A DNA stretch of 64,000 nt from Streptacidiphilus sp. P02-A3a (GTDB lineage Bacteria; Actinomycetota; Actinomycetes; Streptomycetales; Streptomycetaceae), in the NCBI RefSeq assembly GCF_014084105.1, contig NZ_CP048289.1, forward strand, positions 5,899,922 through 5,963,921, read 5' to 3'. The notes under the pieces were generated by a model. It saw only the letters and a list, made by a program, of their open reading frames with translations, ran no database searches and had not been told where the DNA came from. This document shows, in pieces, positions 53,240-63,439 of this stretch (position 1 is its first letter; the number at the start of each line of letters is the position of its first letter). A program made the position numbers and the translations under genes.

Positions 53240-54985
53240 GTGGCCGAGCGCACCGGACCGCAGCGCCAGGCGGAGCCGGGAAGCGCGCTGCGGCGGCTGA
53301 CCGCACGGTGGGGGCGGCCGGTCGCGGCGGACCTCACCGCCGGGGTGGTCACCGGGCTGTTCAGCATCCCCGAGGGAATGGCCTACGCCTCCATCGCCGG
53401 GTTCAACCCGGTCGCCGGGCTGTACGCGGGCGTGGCGCCGCCGATCCTCGGCTCGCTGGCCGCGCCGACCGTGCTCATGGTCACCACGCTGACCAGCGCG
53501 ATCGCGCTGACCGGCCAGAGCGTGGTGACGAACGCCGGGCTCGACCCGCACGCGCCCGGGACGGTCGCCGCACTCACGCTGCTGGTCGGTGCGGTGATGC
53601 TGGCCATGGGCGCGCTGCGGCTGGGCGTGGTGCTGAGCTTCGTCTCCAACGCGGTGATGACCGGCTTCTCCACCGGCATCGCGCTGCAGATCGTCACCGG
53701 GGTGCTCAAGGACGCCACCGGCTACCAGCCCGCCGGGCACAACAAGCTGCTCCAGCTGTGGAACTGGCTGATCCACCTGGACCACTGGCAGCTCGCACCG
53801 ACCCTGGTGGCCCTCGCCACCATCGCCGTCTGGGCGCTGGCGCACGCGGTGCGGCGGCTGGCGGCGGTGGCCCTGCTGATCGCGATGGTGCTGGTCAGCG
53901 TGGCGGTGGGGGTGCTCGGCACGGACGTGGAGCTGGTACGCGGCATCGCCCGGATCCCGGCGGCGCTGCCCGGCTTCTCCGCGCCGGACTGGGGCGCGAT
54001 GCCGCACCTGGTCGGCGGCGCGGTCTCGGTGGCCCTGGTCGCACTGGCCCAGGCCGCCGGGGTCGCGCCGTCGATGCCGAACCCGGACGGCAGCCGCTCC
54101 AGCGTCAACGGCGACTTCGCCGCGCAGGGGCTGGCCAACCTCGGCGGCGGCCTGTTCAGCGCGCTGCCGTCGGGCGGGTCGCTGTCGCGGACCGGGGTGG
54201 CCACCAGCGCCGGGGCGCGGACCCGCTGGGCCGGGGTGATCTCCGGGGTGTTCCTGGCGCTGGCGGTGCTGCTCTGCGGCAAGCTCGCCGAACGCATCCC
54301 GATGCCGGTCATCGGCGGGCTGATCCTGGTCATCGGCGGCGAGCTGATCTGGGGCAAGCGCGGCGACATCGTCCTGGTCTGCCGGACCTCGCCGCTGTCC
54401 GCCGTCGCCATGCTGGTGACCTTCGGCGCCACCACCCAGCTGCCGCTGCAACAGGCGATCGTGATCGGCGCGGTGCTGTCGCTGCTGCTGTACTGCGTCC
54501 AGGCGGCCCGGCAGAGCCGACTGGTCGAGCTGGAGCGGGACGCCGAGGGCGCCTGGTCCAGCACCAGCGTGCCGGTGCCGACGGTGCTGGCTCCGGGCCG
54601 GGTGACCGTACTCAGCTACGAGGGCACCAGCCTGTTCGCCGAACTCCCCCGGCTGGAGACCCGGCTGCCCCGGGTCGACGGCGCCCGGGACGCGGTGCTG
54701 GTACTGGTGATGCGGACCGCGCCCGACGTCCCCTCCTCGGCGATCCTCAAGCTGATCGGCCGCTACGCCGCCCGGTTGGACGCGGCGGGCGGGCGGCTGC
54801 TGCTGGCCGGGGTCCACCCGCAGCTCGCGGAGATCCTGCGGCGGACCGGGATCACCGCGCGGCTCGGCGCGGACGCGGTCATCCCGGCCGTCCCGGCGCT
54901 GCTGGAGCCGCTGGACCAGGCGGAGGCGCGGGGCCGCGCCTGGATCACGGCGCGCCGGGAGCGGCGGGCCCGGGAGCAGGCGTAG
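53240..54985 (+). CDS. SulP-family anion transporter with STAS domain
   Basis: This protein has 581 aa from GTG 53240. The 12-14 helix SulP core carries the family stretch Gly-Leu-Phe-Ser-Ile-Pro-Glu-Gly-Met-Ala-Tyr-Ala-Ser-Ile-Ala-Gly, Pro-Val-Ala-Gly-Leu-Tyr-Ala-Gly and Ala-Leu-Pro-Ser-Gly-Gly-Ser-Leu-Ser-Arg-Thr. Residues about 450-560 form a degenerate STAS domain. Sulfate, bicarbonate or another inorganic anion is the usual cargo. No carbonic anhydrase or sulfate-assimilation gene is adjacent. Confidence 0.9.
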   Translation: MAERTGPQRQAEPGSALRRLTARWGRPVAADLTAGVVTGLFSIPEGMAYASIAGFNPVAGLYAGVAPPILGSLAAPTVLMVTTLTSAIALTGQSVVTNAGLDPHAPGTVAALTLLVGAVMLAMGALRLGVVLSFVSNAVMTGFSTGIALQIVTGVLKDATGYQPAGHNKLLQLWNWLIHLDHWQLAPTLVALATIAVWALAHAVRRLAAVALLIAMVLVSVAVGVLGTDVELVRGIARIPAALPGFSAPDWGAMPHLVGGAVSVALVALAQAAGVAPSMPNPDGSRSSVNGDFAAQGLANLGGGLFSALPSGGSLSRTGVATSAGARTRWAGVISGVFLALAVLLCGKLAERIPMPVIGGLILVIGGELIWGKRGDIVLVCRTSPLSAVAMLVTFGATTQLPLQQAIVIGAVLSLLLYCVQAARQSRLVELERDAEGAWSSTSVPVPTVLAPGRVTVLSYEGTSLFAELPRLETRLPRVDGARDAVLVLVMRTAPDVPSSAILKLIGRYAARLDAAGGRLLLAGVHPQLAEILRRTGITARLGADAVIPAVPALLEPLDQAEARGRAWITARRERRAREQA

Positions 54986-55148: not shown

Positions 55149-56153
55149 ATGTCGCTTTTCCGACGCCGGTCCCGGAGCGGGAGCCAGGACGGTGGGGCGG
55201 CGCCGGTCGTGCCCGCGCCGTCGGGCCCGCCGCCGGTACTGGACGACCTGTGCGGGGACGCCGAGCTGCTGCTGATGCGCGATCAGGCGGTCGCGGGCGA
55301 CTGGGCCGCACTGCGGGAGGGTCTGGCGGCGATCACCGACCAGACCGAGCTGACCTGGGTGCTGATCGCCCTGGCCGAGGTCGCCGGGGTGGAGGAGTGG
55401 ACGTCGCGGGCGGTCGCCGAGGAGCCCGACTCGGCGCTGCCGCTGTTGCTCTCCGGCGCCCGGCAGGTCGCCTGGGCCTGGGAGGCCCGCACCCGGCAGT
55501 CGGCCAAGCACGTGAGCCAGGACCAGTGGAAGGCGTTCCGGAGCCGACTCGCGACCGCCGAGGAGCAGTTGTTCGAGGTCGCCGAGCGGGAGCCGGAGTG
55601 GCTCGCCCCCTGGTACTTCCTGCAGCACAGCGGCCGGGGCGCCTCGCTGGACCAGGAGGTCTGCCGCTACCGGTTCGAGGCAGCGCTACGGCGCCGTCCC
55701 GGACACCTGGCCTCGCACCAGGCGCGGTTGCAGCAGCTGTGCGCCAAGTGGGGCGGCTCGCACGAGGCGATGCACGCGTTCGCGCAGGCCTCGATGCGGG
55801 CGCAGCCGGAGGGCAGTCCGTTCGGCGAGCTGGTCGCGCTGGCCCATCTGGAGCGCTGGGTGGACCTGGACGGCGGCGACGCGGGCCGGGCGTACCTGAC
55901 CCGTCCGGAGGTGCTCGCGGAACTGCGCGAGGCCGCCGAGCGCTCGGTGCTGCACCCCGACTTCCAGCGGCGGCGCGGCTGGCAGGCCACGTACAACAGC
56001 TTCGCCATGGCGCTGTCGCTGGCCGGTGAGCGGGCGACCGCGCACCGGCTGTTCCAGGCGCTGGACGGCACGGCCACCACTTTCCCCTGGCGCTACCTGA
56101 GCGGGACTCCGGTCGACCAGTTCGGCAAGCACCGGGACCTGTGCGCGCAGTAG
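55149..56153 (+). CDS. helical-repeat protein heading the HSP90 operon
   Basis: This protein has 334 aa from ATG 55149, after GAGGGGGAA; the frame upstream is not coding. A short basic Ser/Arg head and a Pro linker are followed by a soluble all-helical solenoid with TPR-like spacing but weak consensus (Trp-Ala-Ala-Leu-Arg-Glu-Gly-Leu; Trp-Tyr-Phe-Leu-Gln-His-Ser; Trp-Gln-Ala-Thr-Tyr-Asn-Ser-Phe). It ends 69 bases before the HSP90 gene on the same strand, so co-transcription is likely. The family is unknown to me; it may be a client adaptor. Confidence 0.7.
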   Translation: MSLFRRRSRSGSQDGGAAPVVPAPSGPPPVLDDLCGDAELLLMRDQAVAGDWAALREGLAAITDQTELTWVLIALAEVAGVEEWTSRAVAEEPDSALPLLLSGARQVAWAWEARTRQSAKHVSQDQWKAFRSRLATAEEQLFEVAEREPEWLAPWYFLQHSGRGASLDQEVCRYRFEAALRRRPGHLASHQARLQQLCAKWGGSHEAMHAFAQASMRAQPEGSPFGELVALAHLERWVDLDGGDAGRAYLTRPEVLAELREAAERSVLHPDFQRRRGWQATYNSFAMALSLAGERATAHRLFQALDGTATTFPWRYLSGTPVDQFGKHRDLCAQ

Positions 56154-56222
56154 CGCGGCGCTCCCCCAGACCCACCGTTCCCGCCGACCTCGCGATCCCG
56201 CCGACCGAAAGAGCCAGCTCCG

Positions 56223-58094
56223 GTGTCCCCCAACGAAATCCCGTCGGACAGCCCCGCCAACGCGCACACCTTCCAGGTGGACCTGCGCGGTCTGGTGGAC
56301 CTGCTGTCCCACCACCTCTACTCCAGCCCCCGGGTGTACCTGCGCGAACTGCTGCAGAACGCGGTGGACGCGATCTCCGCCCGGCAGGCGCTCGACCCGG
56401 CGGCGCCGGCCCGGATCACCGTCCGCGCCGACGGTGAACTCACCGTCACCGACACCGGCATCGGCCTGACCGAGGCCGACGTGCACACCTTCCTGGCCAC
56501 CATCGGCCGCAGCTCCAAGCGCGACGCCGAGGGGCGGCTGGACGGCACCGGGCTGGCCTCGGCGCGCGGCGACTTCATCGGGCAGTTCGGCATCGGCCTG
56601 CTGGCCTGCTTCGTGGTGGCCGACGAGATCACCGTGGTCACCCGCTCCGCCGCCGCCCCGGACGCCCCGGTGATCGAGTGGCGCGGCAGCTCCGACGGCC
56701 GGTACACCATCCGCACCCTGCCCGCCGGGGCGCAGCCGCAGCCGGGGACCACCGTCCGGCTGGCGCCGCGCGCCGACGCCGCCCAGTGGACCCGCGCCGA
56801 CCAGGTGGTGGCGCTGGCCCGGGACTTCGGCAGCCTGCTGCGGCACGAGGTGACCGTGGTCGACGGCAGCGGGAGCGAGACCCGGATCAACCGGACGCCG
56901 CCGTGGGCCGCCGCGCACGGCTCCCCGCTGGCCCGGCGCGAGGCGCTGACCGAGTACTGCCGGACGACGTTCGACTTCACCCCGCTCGACTGCATCGACC
57001 TGGACCTGCCGGTCGCCGGGCTCAGCGGGGTGGCGTACGTGCTGCCGGACGCCGTGCCGCCGTCGCGGCGGGCCGGGCACCGGGTGCACCTGAAGGGCAT
57101 GCTGCTCTCCGACAAGGCCGATGAACTGCTGCCGGACTGGGCGTTCTTCGTCCGCTGCGTGGTGGACACCGACAGCCTGCGGCCGACCGCCTCCCGCGAG
57201 GGGCTGTACGCCGACGAGACGCTGGCGGCGGTGCGGGACGCCCTGGGCGGGCGCATCCGGGACTGGCTGACCGGCCTGTCCGCCAGCGATCCGGCGCTGC
57301 TGCACCGCTTCCTCGGGGTGCACCACCTGGCGGTGAAGGCGCTGGCCCGCCACGACGACGAACTGCTGCGGATGCTGCTGCCGTGGCTGCCGTTCGAGAC
57401 CACCGACGGCCGGGTCACCCTGGACGAGTTCGCCCGCGCCCACCCGGTGATCCTGGTCACCCGTACCGTCGAGGAGTTCCGCCAGGTGGCGCCGGTGGCG
57501 GGCGCGGCGGGCCTGGGCGTGGTCAACGGCGGCTACACCTACGACCGCGACCTGGTGCACCGGCTGCCGGAGATCCGCCCCGGCAGTTCGGTGGCCGACC
57601 TGGACCCGGGCACGGTCACCGCGCACCTGGACGCGGTCGACCCCTCGGTCGAACTCGCCGCCGCCGCGTTCCTCGGCATCGCCCGCGAGGTGGTCGGCCG
57701 CTTCGACTGCGATGTGGCGCTGCGCACCTTCCACCCGGCCGGTGCCCCGGCGCTGCTGCTGGACGACCGGGAGGCCAGGCACGAGCGCACCCGCGCCCAA
57801 CTCGCGGACGACGCCGACGGGTTGTGGGCCGACATCCTGGGTTCGCTGCGCGCCGCGACACCCCGGGCGCAGCTGGTGCTGAACCACCTGAACCCGCTGG
57901 TCCGCCGGGCCGCCTCGATCACCCACCGGGAACTCGCGGTCACCGCCGTGGAGGCGCTGTACGGGCAGGCGCTGCTGCTCACCCGGCGTCCGCTGCGGTC
58001 CAGCGAGAGCGCCCTGCTGAACCGTTCCTTCATCAGCCTGCTGGACCACGCCATGCTCGGCCACGAGACGGCCGCCCCCGGGAAGGACGCCTAG
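56223..58094 (+). CDS. HSP90-family ATPase (divergent HtpG-like)
   Basis: This protein has 623 aa from GTG 56223. The N-terminal GHKL ATPase has Tyr-Leu-Arg-Glu-Leu-Leu-Gln-Asn-Ala-Val-Asp-Ala (catalytic Glu42, Mg-binding Asn46), Asp-Thr-Gly-Ile-Gly-Leu (77-82) and Gly-Gln-Phe-Gly-Ile-Gly-Leu-Leu (120-127). The middle domain carries Ser-Arg-Glu-Gly (about 325), the usual gamma-phosphate contact. The C-terminal dimer region is shorter and unlike HtpG, and there is no eukaryotic Met-Glu-Glu-Val-Asp tail. Its stop shares one base with the start of a giant TPR gene, giving a chaperone-TPR pair. Confidence 0.9.
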   Translation: MSPNEIPSDSPANAHTFQVDLRGLVDLLSHHLYSSPRVYLRELLQNAVDAISARQALDPAAPARITVRADGELTVTDTGIGLTEADVHTFLATIGRSSKRDAEGRLDGTGLASARGDFIGQFGIGLLACFVVADEITVVTRSAAAPDAPVIEWRGSSDGRYTIRTLPAGAQPQPGTTVRLAPRADAAQWTRADQVVALARDFGSLLRHEVTVVDGSGSETRINRTPPWAAAHGSPLARREALTEYCRTTFDFTPLDCIDLDLPVAGLSGVAYVLPDAVPPSRRAGHRVHLKGMLLSDKADELLPDWAFFVRCVVDTDSLRPTASREGLYADETLAAVRDALGGRIRDWLTGLSASDPALLHRFLGVHHLAVKALARHDDELLRMLLPWLPFETTDGRVTLDEFARAHPVILVTRTVEEFRQVAPVAGAAGLGVVNGGYTYDRDLVHRLPEIRPGSSVADLDPGTVTAHLDAVDPSVELAAAAFLGIAREVVGRFDCDVALRTFHPAGAPALLLDDREARHERTRAQLADDADGLWADILGSLRAATPRAQLVLNHLNPLVRRAASITHRELAVTAVEALYGQALLLTRRPLRSSESALLNRSFISLLDHAMLGHETAAPGKDA

Positions 58095-61018
58095 TGCTGG
58101 ACACCACCGAAGCCGTGCTGGACGCGCTGCGCGCCAACGACGAGCGGCCCTACGGCCACGAGCGCACGGTCACCGCCGAGGAGATCACCGAGGCCGCCGA
58201 GCAGTTCGAGGACCGGCCGCTGCTGATCGCCTGCCTGCTCGACCTGATGGAGGCCTACACCTACGACGCCGAGGCGCGGAAGTCCCCGGTGGTCTTCGCC
58301 CGGGTGCTGAAACTCTGGGACCAGCACCCGGAGGACTTCAACGACTGGGCGAAGCAGCAGGTCTTCTGGCGCTTCAAGTGGGTGGCGGCGGCGCTGCGCG
58401 GCGTGCCCGAGGTACCGCTGGCCGCGATCCGGCGCTGGCACACCGAGATGCGCGACCGCTACCGAGTCGCCGGATTCGGCCTCCAGCCCTACTACGCGCA
58501 GGAGTTCCACCTCGCCGTGCAGACCGGGGCGGCCGTCGACGAGGCCTTCGAGCTGTGGGCCGCCCGGCCGCGCTCCGAGCTGAGCGACTGCGTCGCCTGC
58601 GAGGCGCACAGCCGGGCCGCGCACCACATGCGTCGCGGCGACGACGCGCGGGCACTGGAGGTCTGGCAGCCGGTCCTGGACGGACGCAGCACCTGCAGTG
58701 AGGAGCCGTACTCCAGCCACGCGAGCGCGCTGCTGCCGCTGCTGCGCCTGGGCCGCACCGACGACGCCCGCTCCAGCCACCTGGTCGGCTACCGGTTCGC
58801 CCGGGGCAAGTCCAACCTGGCCGCCGAGGTCGGGCTGCACCTGGAGTTCTGCGCGCTCAGCGGCAACGCGGCGCGGGGTCTGGAGATCCTGGCGGAGAAC
58901 CGCGACCTGTTCGGGGTGGTCGGCCGCCCGCTGTCGCAACTCAACTTCCTGACCGGGGTCGAGGTGCTGCTGAACGTGCTGGAGGCGGAGGGCCACCGCG
59001 AGATCCCGGTCAGCGGGCCGCCCGGGGCGAACTGGACCGCAGCCTCGCTGCTCGCCCGGATCCGGCCGCAGGCCGAGGAGTTGGCGGCGCAGTTCGACGC
59101 CCGCAACGGCAGCGACACGATCAGCGCCCGGCGTCGCGCCCGGCTCGCGCAACAGCCGCTGCTCGCCGAGCCGTTGGCGCTCGGCGTGCGCGCCGCGCAG
59201 CTGCCGGGCGCGGCGGGCGCACCGGCCCCGGCTCCGGCGGCCCGCCCGGCGGCCGAGCCGATCCCGCAGGACCTGGTGCAACTGGTGCTCCGGGCACGGG
59301 AACTGCGGCGGATCGAGCATCCGGACGCGTGGCAGCTGTGGCAGCGCGCGGCCCAGCTGGTGGCGGCCGAGGACTACACCCACCCGGAGGATCCGGAGCT
59401 GGGCAGCGAGGAGCGGCTGCGGGCCGACCTCGCCGAGGTGCGCGCCCAGCAGCTGCGCGACGCGGGCGACGCGGACCAGGCCCGGACCGAACTCCTCAGC
59501 TCGGTCGCCCTGTTCGAGCAGGCCGGGCTGCCCGGCCGGGCGCTGGCCAACCGGGCCAGGCTCGTCGTACTGGGCCCGGAGCAGCCGGAGACACCGGCGG
59601 ACTGGGCCGAACTCGATGAACTGCTCTCCCGCGCGCTGGAGTTGCTGTCAACCGGGGACGAGGTGGTGCGGACCAATTATCTGACTGTCCGTCATGTCCG
59701 GGTTTTCGTGGCGCATCGCGAGCTGGTGGCGGCGCTGCCCGAGCCGCCGCCCGCGACCACCGAGCGGTTCGCCGCCGAGGTCGAGGCGATGCTGCGGCGC
59801 GCCGCCGAACTGGGGGCCGGGCACCGTGCGGTCGCCGCCCGGCACTGCGCCGCCGACATCGCGGCCCGGCAGGGGAGGTTCGCCGAGGCCGACGCGCAAC
59901 TGGACGAGGCGGTGCGGCTGTTGGAGCAGGTCGAGCGGCCCTGGAGCATCCCGCCGCTCACCGGCCTGCGCGGACAGGTCAGGCTCCGGCAGCAGCAGCC
60001 CGCCGAGGCGAAGGACCTGTTCCAGCAGGCCGTCGCCGAGGCCACCAGGTGGCGGCTGCGGCCCTTCCCCTTCGGACCGCTGTACGCGATGCTCGCCGAG
60101 GCCTGCGCGCATTGCGACGACTCGGCCGGGACGGTCCGGGCGCTGTCCGAGGCCGCCGCCCACTTCGACCGGGACGACGAGCCCGGACGGGCGGCCCAGA
60201 TCCGGCTGCGGCTGGCCGCCGAGCTGCGCCGGGCCGAACGCGGCACGGACGCGGTCGCGGTACTGGAGTCGGTGCTGCTGGACCCGGCCGCGGCGCGGCT
60301 GGACGAGCGGCTGCGCGCGCAGGCCCGGCTGGAACTGGCCCGGGGACTCACCCAGCTCAAGGAGTTCCGGGACGCCGCCGAGGAGTACCTGCGGCTCGCC
60401 GACACGGTGGCCGGGTGGGCGGACCAGGACACGCACACCATGGTCGCCAGCGAGGCGACCGTCGCCCTGGCCGAGGCCGGCAGCTGGGAGGCCGCCGACG
60501 CGGCCCGCGAGCGCACCCTGGCCTCGCACGCCCGGGCGCCGCGGACCGAGCAGGTGGCGGCGATGCTGCGGGAGCTCGCCCGGCTCACGACCGTGGCGCG
60601 GGGCGCGGACGGGCTGGAGTCGGCCCTGGCCCGGCTGACCGAGGCGCGGGCGGTGCTCGACCGGGCCGCGACACCGGGCGACCAGGCCCCGGGGCACCCG
60701 GTCGGCCTCGCCTTCCAGGCCGCCGGCCTGCACTACGAACGGGCCTGCTGCTACGCCCGGGCGGAGCGGCCCGAGGAGGCCCTGGCCGCGGCGGAACTGG
60801 CGATCGCCGGGTACGAGGCGGGCGGCCCGCAACTGGAAGGCCCCCGGGCGGAGGCGGTGCGGGTGGCCTCGGTGCTGGAGGGCCGCGCGCTGGGCAGGCC
60901 GGACGCGGCCCGGGCCCGGCTCGCCCCGGCCATCCGGCGCTGCGAACAGGCCGGTCTGGGCGACGCCGCGAAGATCCTGGTCGAGCTGCGCGACAGCCTG
61001 CCGCGGCCCCGGGGCTGA
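58094..61018 (+). CDS. 974-aa TPR/helical-repeat partner of the HSP90-family protein
   Basis: GTG 58094 overlaps the HSP90 stop (TAGTG). Residues 1 to about 330 form a helical domain rich in Trp and His (Phe-Asn-Asp-Trp-Ala-Lys-Gln-Gln-Val-Phe-Trp-Arg-Phe-Lys), then a Pro/Ala linker (about 355-390), then a long TPR array to about 960 with units such as Phe-Ala-Glu-Ala-Asp-Ala-Gln-Leu-Asp-Glu-Ala and Ala-Ala-Glu-Glu-Tyr-Leu-Arg-Leu-Ala. No enzymatic motif. One-base translational coupling implies equal amounts and direct contact with the chaperone, as eukaryotic TPR co-chaperones have with HSP90. Confidence 0.85.
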   Translation: MLDTTEAVLDALRANDERPYGHERTVTAEEITEAAEQFEDRPLLIACLLDLMEAYTYDAEARKSPVVFARVLKLWDQHPEDFNDWAKQQVFWRFKWVAAALRGVPEVPLAAIRRWHTEMRDRYRVAGFGLQPYYAQEFHLAVQTGAAVDEAFELWAARPRSELSDCVACEAHSRAAHHMRRGDDARALEVWQPVLDGRSTCSEEPYSSHASALLPLLRLGRTDDARSSHLVGYRFARGKSNLAAEVGLHLEFCALSGNAARGLEILAENRDLFGVVGRPLSQLNFLTGVEVLLNVLEAEGHREIPVSGPPGANWTAASLLARIRPQAEELAAQFDARNGSDTISARRRARLAQQPLLAEPLALGVRAAQLPGAAGAPAPAPAARPAAEPIPQDLVQLVLRARELRRIEHPDAWQLWQRAAQLVAAEDYTHPEDPELGSEERLRADLAEVRAQQLRDAGDADQARTELLSSVALFEQAGLPGRALANRARLVVLGPEQPETPADWAELDELLSRALELLSTGDEVVRTNYLTVRHVRVFVAHRELVAALPEPPPATTERFAAEVEAMLRRAAELGAGHRAVAARHCAADIAARQGRFAEADAQLDEAVRLLEQVERPWSIPPLTGLRGQVRLRQQQPAEAKDLFQQAVAEATRWRLRPFPFGPLYAMLAEACAHCDDSAGTVRALSEAAAHFDRDDEPGRAAQIRLRLAAELRRAERGTDAVAVLESVLLDPAAARLDERLRAQARLELARGLTQLKEFRDAAEEYLRLADTVAGWADQDTHTMVASEATVALAEAGSWEAADAARERTLASHARAPRTEQVAAMLRELARLTTVARGADGLESALARLTEARAVLDRAATPGDQAPGHPVGLAFQAAGLHYERACCYARAERPEEALAAAELAIAGYEAGGPQLEGPRAEAVRVASVLEGRALGRPDAARARLAPAIRRCEQAGLGDAAKILVELRDSLPRPRG

Positions 61019-61207: not shown

Positions 61208-63436
<2,229 letters not shown>

Positions 63437-63439
<3 letters not shown>

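Follow-up and report, generated by a model that had tools for sequence, protein, structure and literature searches.

In eukaryotes, HSP90 works with co-chaperones that carry tetratricopeptide repeats (TPRs), such as Hop, FKBP51/52, and PP5. Bacterial HtpG is described, in passages of PMC4428384, as a stand-alone machine for which no co-chaperone is known. Portions of Chen et al. 2006 (PMC1525184) recognize three HTPG groups, one of which, found in Firmicutes, is Group C, and report that Streptomyces coelicolor has two copies of HTPG, each from a different group. Neither "operon" nor "neighbo" appears anywhere in the text of that paper. Here, we describe a locus within a 64,000-nt stretch of Streptacidiphilus sp. 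P02-A3a (NZ_CP048289.1; the whole stretch is called the window, and positions are given in its coordinates) in which the gene for a diverged HSP90 is coupled to the gene for a 974-amino-acid TPR-type protein. Judging from their gene sequences, many bacteria carry such a second, divergent HSP90 gene coupled to a helical-repeat gene, and no such pair was split in the genomes sampled, which points to the repeat protein being either a dedicated co-chaperone or an obligate client. We consider it somewhat probable that the locus encodes a chaperone module of two components, plus an optional third, in which a diverged HSP90 acts with a dedicated TPR-type co-chaperone.

Like the eukaryotic systems, the locus pairs an HSP90 with a TPR-type protein. 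It differs from them in that the HSP90 has no C-terminal Met-Glu-Glu-Val-Asp (MEEVD) tail, and in its partner, which forms a long superhelix, bears a three-cysteine motif, and is coupled genetically to a single HSP90 paralogue. A preliminary description of this DNA had remarked on the missing tail, and the absence is general: at none of 98 loci compared (a set that includes the window's own locus twice, as L002 and L008) does the HSP90 end in EEVD. The same description called such pairs little described. Our literature search, which included parts of PMC10490939 and PMC11687934, found no description of this one, but most subscription journals lay outside the search, so the absence is weak evidence.

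Layout and translational coupling

Positions 55149 to 61018 are occupied by three plus-strand genes with products of 334, 623, and 974 amino acids (aa). Their features are as follows.

55149 to 56153, plus strand: upstream gene, encoding a 334-aa all-helical TPR-type protein; optional third member (AlphaFold2 model, Foldseek, neighbor counts)
56223 to 58094, plus strand: HSP90-class gene, type 1 (NF010683), 623 aa, GTG start (NF010683 score, HtpG alignment)
56343 to 56372, plus strand: ATPase motif RELLQNAVDA with Glu42 and Asn46 (both invariant in alignment A2; motif in 98 of 98 loci)
58083 to 58087, plus strand: putative Shine-Dalgarno sequence AAGGA for the partner, within the last HSP90 codons (sequence reading, locus comparison)
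58092 to 58096, plus strand: TAGTG, HSP90 stop and partner start with one common base (sequence reading)
58094 to 61018, plus strand: partner gene, encoding a 974-aa TPR-type protein, GTG start (directly downstream of 132 of 132 type 1 HSP90 genes)
58094 to 59143, plus strand: conserved partner core, residues 1 to 350 (alignment A1; the portion common to Listeria and Paenibacillus)
58589 to 58696, plus strand: three-cysteine motif DCxACE...C, with Cys166 at 58589 to 58591, Cys169 at 58598 to 58600, and Cys201 at 58694 to 58696 (invariant in A1)
59294 to 61015, plus strand: fast-diverging C-terminal helical part, residues 401 to 974 (divergence; the Listeria and Paenibacillus partners lack it)

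As the preliminary description had it, the TAG stop codon of the HSP90 gene (58092 to 58094) and the GTG start codon of its partner (58094 to 58096) have base 58094 in common. Across 92 loci, with the window's own taken once, the two genes overlap in 45, lie 0 to 4 bases apart in 43, and lie farther apart in 4, so that 88 fall between -8 and +4; because starts close to the stop were preferred, these counts are biased toward tight spacing. A Shine-Dalgarno match of at least 5 bases stands ahead of the partner start at 81 of 93 loci, versus 5.1% of 2619 internal ATG/GTG control positions. At the level of gene sequence, these features show the HSP90 and its partner to be translationally coupled. 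By its sequence, the partner is translated from the Shine-Dalgarno sequence within the HSP90's last codons, starting at or beside the HSP90 stop, so that both proteins arise at the same site and, we presume, in a constant ratio. A conserved tail on the HSP90 (RKDS, RKEL, etc.) was considered as a substitute for MEEVD and set aside; it is more simply the partner's AAGGA read in frame.

A diverged HSP90 distinct from HtpG

The middle protein matches the NCBIfam family NF010683/PRK14083, "HSP90 family protein," with an E value of 1.8e-251 and 835.9 bits (cut-off, 455) and is therefore a member; the entry names HSP90 only, and the coupled partner goes unmentioned in the matches seen. The canonical HtpG model, NF003555, reaches only 173.1 bits, below its cut-off of 371. 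The window's genome encodes a separate HtpG, and NF010683-type proteins and HtpG form separate clades in a 28-row tree. In a profile match, the window's HSP90 aligns with that HtpG over 554 columns (HtpG residues 3 to 622 of 637; E = 2.7e-40), which amounts to full N-middle-C homology. E. coli HtpG is an N-middle-C HSP90 like the window's. Of three htpG genes examined in actinomycetes, none has a TPR gene as an immediate neighbor. The nearest solved relatives are TRAP1 (E = 6.5e-33), and Foldseek aligns full-length HSP90s over approximately 660 to 690 columns, the HSP90 model there being only moderate. By its sequence, the window's protein is a diverged HSP90 paralogue, distinct from HtpG, in keeping with the preliminary description.

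The ATPase residues compared were the Glu and Asn of RExxxN, the Asp of DxGxG, GxFGxG, and the arginine of SRE in the middle domain. E42, N46, D77, G79, G81, and R325 are invariant in the HSP90 alignment A2. The E, GxFG, and SRE ATPase patterns occur in 98 of 98 loci and the D pattern in 95, with D present by eye in the other three. The roles of the catalytic-type Glu42 and of Asn46 follow the HSP90 literature. With its ATP-binding residues conserved and its N-middle-C homology intact, the HSP90 would be expected to go through the usual ATP-driven dimer cycle.

Conservation of the pair

The family survey covered 190 genomes of the window's family, and the phylum survey covered 396. NF010683 scored above cut-off at 132 places in 118 family genomes, and the partner core (alignment A1) was found at 137 places in 122. 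The partner comes immediately after all 132 type 1 HSP90s, on the same strand, and the gap between match edges ranges from 6 to 226 bases (median, 39). The preliminary description had proposed a dedicated partner and had named frequent separation beforehand as the sign that would tell against one; the two genes are separated in 0 of 132 cases. In the reverse direction, 134 of 137 partner cores accompany an HSP90, counting that of G521, which follows an HSP90 truncated by the contig end, and that of G524, where the HSP90 is internally deleted. In G524 (L173, contig C353), the HSP90 lacks residues 95 to 438 yet is still flanked by the upstream gene on one side and an intact partner on the other.

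Across the phylum, HSP90s exceed the cut-off at 14 places, spread over 12 genomes, and the core follows in 13. The 14th HSP90 (G325) overlaps by 4 bases (ATGA) with an open reading frame whose Pfam TPR match is above cut-off. Canonical HtpG occurs in many more genomes, and its presence is no predictor of the partner. Marginal A1 places were dropped from these counts (G001 and G095 in the phylum, E above 1e-5; G524:C327, E = 7.2e-6).

The 80 loci nearest by similarity, a capped and hence biased set, were compared for their neighbors. The HSP90 is present in 80 of 80 and the partner, by clustering, in 79 (70 plus 9 short), of which the nine short ones comprise eight cut by contig ends and one with a broken frame (L059); in the 80th (L040), tblastn finds the partner in pieces. 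Neighbor genes were called with a simple script here and at the type 2 and htpG loci described in this report. No neighbor recurs beyond the three genes, the commonest other family being present in 13 of the 80 loci. In the window, the flanking genes (53240 to 54985 and 61220 to 63439) are, by eye, a SulP-type transporter and a monomeric isocitrate dehydrogenase; neither is a conserved neighbor.

Conservation and coupling demonstrate co-expression rather than binding, and the two proteins might serve one pathway or signal with no direct contact, as the lack of a predicted interface (see below) would also allow. We hold this to be improbable, since universal adjacency in shuffled surroundings, seen with two HSP90 types, in our judgment exceeds what is usual for co-regulated genes. 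More improbable by far is a role in anti-phage defense or another mobile system with a GHKL ATPase. The HSP90 ATPase domain weakly matches the PADLOC models for TmtA and type II restriction (best E = 1.7e-6), and in a relative from Pseudanabaena the end of the protein is TIR-like (Pfam E = 1e-3, below cut-off), but the PADLOC matches are confined to the common ATPase fold and lie far below the HSP90 score, the two TPR proteins have no PADLOC match at an E value of 1, and the lack of a recurrent neighbor family also speaks against such a system. A known anti-phage defense system was rejected, as PADLOC does not match all parts.

The upstream gene

Neither Pfam nor NCBIfam yields a match to the upstream protein (P0001) at an E value of 0.1. 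Its AlphaFold2 model (predicted local distance difference test [pLDDT] score, 92.6; predicted template modeling [pTM] score, 0.88) is a TPR-type superhelix, as is its best Foldseek match (E = 2.3e-3), so the helical-repeat gene of the preliminary description is borne out by prediction. The three-gene order, whose conservation it had asked to be surveyed, is not fixed. Although the family is missing from only one of the 80 nearest loci (79 have it), an upstream homologue lies within 1.5 kb of at least 76 of the 132 type 1 HSP90 genes in the 190 family genomes, a count that is a lower bound because homologues weaker than approximately 1e-52 were dropped. Furthermore, 27 of the 103 homologues with an E value of 1e-52 or better are elsewhere or unmatched to an HSP90, including one in G408 that directly adjoins a matched copy and another next to the HSP90 remnant of G524. 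The upstream gene is an optional third member of the module. A distant paralogue is encoded elsewhere in the window's genome (L166:1417-2304, corresponding to G000:C1:8025818-8026612; E = 1.5e-23), with no HSP90 within the 3.8 kb seen.

The partner protein

The preliminary description of a 974-aa helical, TPR protein holds, with refinements. A TPR-type superhelix is predicted for residues 1 to 350, while Pfam TPR models remain below cut-off in the full-length protein (TPR_12, 23.0 bits versus 30.1). The core is all-helical in the model, with pLDDT values of 79 to 98 by ten-residue blocks from model residue 631. Its fold resembles MalT domain III (1hz4; Z = 20.3 over 319 residues) and chain O of APC/C, which is APC5 (Z = 20.9 over 325 residues). 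Both share the same TPR-type superhelix at approximately 10% identity, and the fold says nothing of function.

Conservation is concentrated in the core: the mean frequency of the commonest residue is 0.71 for residues 1 to 350 versus 0.545 for residues 401 to 974 (66 sequences). Invariant core positions in A1 (17 sequences, two phyla) include W92, K95, W96, C166, A168, C169, G197, C201, P205, F334, D335, and R337. Every one of the 93 paired partners has the pattern CxxC-x(24-40)-CxxxP, as do all 5 orphan cores once the spacing is relaxed, so the cysteines are a property of the core rather than of binding to HSP90 as such. The model places two of them, Cys792 and Cys795 in its numbering (equivalent to Cys166 and Cys169), at one helix start and the third, Cys827 (Cys201), in the loop before the following helix pair; the three are likely to be near each other in space, and they could bind metal or sense redox state.

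The giant size of the partner, which the preliminary description had emphasized, is not essential. The Listeria and Paenibacillus partners, of 324 and 353 aa, both lack the C-terminal part. In Streptomyces and Listeria records, the partner is annotated as hypothetical.

Other phyla and other HSP90 types

Among 72,556 plasmid-collection records, 7 contain most of the HSP90, 7 contain the core, and 6 contain both side by side: three from Streptomyces, two from Listeria, and one from Paenibacillus. The Bacillota cases are therefore three plasmid-collection records, two of them Listeria, and are not a sample. In one Listeria record (L113:10806-12774), the partner gene is in tandem duplicate and followed by an SMI1/KNR4 family gene. 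A Pseudanabaena plasmid carries an HSP90-like protein with a TPR gene two genes on. That HSP90-like protein (L117:7947-10580) has 877 aa, its end weakly matches a CAP12/Pycsar-type TIR domain (the below-cut-off Pfam match noted above), and its gene adjoins one annotated as TIR domain-containing. Two cores lacking an HSP90 (L144:5532-7609 and L152:5205-9922) adjoin YbjN genes, and in L144 the core and a YbjN domain (E = 1.2e-16) form a single fused protein.

A second type of HSP90, scoring approximately 280 bits against NF010683, occurs in 57 of the 190 family genomes. In 56 of these it is followed by a partner of 776 to 808 aa, and the 57th reaches a contig end; four partial partner places (G422, G401, G466, and the second of G534; E = 5e-16 to 6.5e-11) were dropped. 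The two genes overlap by 4 bases in all four loci read. The type 1 and type 2 HSP90s align over 582 columns (E = 3e-126); both occur in 28 genomes, and at least one is present in 147 of 190. The type 2 partner is homologous to partners from Pseudomonas aeruginosa and Xanthomonas, forming a family of 764 to 808 aa, and one member, from Nonomuraea, has no HSP90 beside it. Homology between the type 1 and type 2 partners was not accepted, given 59% probability for the sequence against A1, 12% (E = 2.5e-3) for profile against profile, and hmmsearch E values of 0.018 and 0.14. Between Pseudomonas and the Streptomyces family (L118, L150, and L158 to L161), the type 2 HSP90s are 58 to 59% identical and the partners 36 to 38%; this HSP90 identity across phyla may reflect unusual constancy or transfer.

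We take the Listeria pair to be lmo0942-lmo0941, an assignment that the neighbor fri supports for lmo0942, and the Pseudomonas pair to be PA1068-PA1069. Passages of PMC3534079 place lmo0942 next to fri, as in L113. A part of PMC6901971 lists lmo0941 as a hypothetical protein with signals of selection, and a part of PMC4957987 includes PA1069 among genes lowered at high temperature.

Co-chaperone or client

The case for a dedicated module is that the pair is never separated in the family (132 of 132) and stays together in 13 of 14 phylum places and 6 of 7 plasmid records. Further support comes from the two exceptions, G325 and Pseudanabaena, which have other TPR genes near; from type 2 HSP90s with independently placed TPR-type partners; and from ATPase motifs that are kept and htpG genes without TPR neighbors. 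In the mechanism we propose, the partner's 350-residue superhelix would dock on the HSP90, using a surface other than the MEEVD clamp because there is no MEEVD tail. In actinomycetes, the fast-diverging C-terminal helical array may then hold or present a client.

Several observations weigh against this mechanism. First, some cores stand without an HSP90: 3 of 137 in the family (G171, G529, and a second copy in G533), 2 of 15 clear core places in the phylum (G171 and G204), and one in Actinomyces oris, beside YbjN, with no HSP90 in the 15 kb seen. The cores of G204 and A. oris lie beside or are fused to YbjN and keep the cysteines, so the core is of some use without this HSP90. Second, the comparisons above do not support homology between type 1 and type 2 partners. 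Third, HSP90 divergence tracks the C-terminal part as closely as it does the core (Spearman, 0.87 versus 0.83; 62 loci), and the core is therefore not singled out as the docking part. Finally, a complex model yielded no confident interface. The pair was modeled as one chain, from loci with HSP90 stop and partner start in frame and TAG read as Gln; an 82-row alignment (A3) was dropped, as it placed partner rows on HSP90 columns, and A5, with 30 rows of which 8 were joined, gave shallow HSP90 depth. With this 30-row alignment, AlphaFold2 reached a pTM of 0.47 and modeled only the partner core well.

The TPR protein might instead be an obligate client, with the HSP90 serving as its private chaperone, made immediately before it to fold or activate what would be a large helical-repeat regulator. 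Clients often diverge fast, and mean pairwise divergence over the same 62 loci is 0.250 for the HSP90, 0.386 for the partner core, and 0.585 for the C-terminal part. The chaperone-first gene order, the orphan cores and YbjN fusion, which suggest that the core has its own task, and the resemblance to MalT domain III, a regulator's sensor domain, all fit as well. Nevertheless, three different TPR-type partners on related HSP90s are more readily explained if TPR adaptors were recruited repeatedly, and the orphan cores evidently fold without this HSP90. Because gene order and the partner's pace of change suit a client equally, we regard a co-chaperone as only rather better supported than not and a client as unlikely, though a serious contender. 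The "client-specific folding machine" of the preliminary description accordingly survives as one of two readings that the data allow, the other being the TPR protein as client.

Implications

On the co-chaperone reading, there are three kinds of partner: the type 1 three-cysteine core, the type 2 family of 764 to 808 aa, and a third TPR protein in one genome. We tentatively suggest, as a possibility short of probable, that bacteria own HSP90 co-chaperone machines, in which diverged HSP90s have been coupled at least three times, in at least three phyla, to unlike TPR-type proteins with no MEEVD. The HSP90-TPR partnership may thus have arisen, or may persist, independently of eukaryotes, and the type 1 cysteines may make that form metal or redox responsive.

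If the co-chaperone reading is true, the pair would offer a simple genetic system for studying how TPR proteins steer HSP90 and its choice of client, free of MEEVD and of the many eukaryotic co-chaperones. It would also give a function to a protein now annotated as hypothetical in Streptomyces and Listeria.

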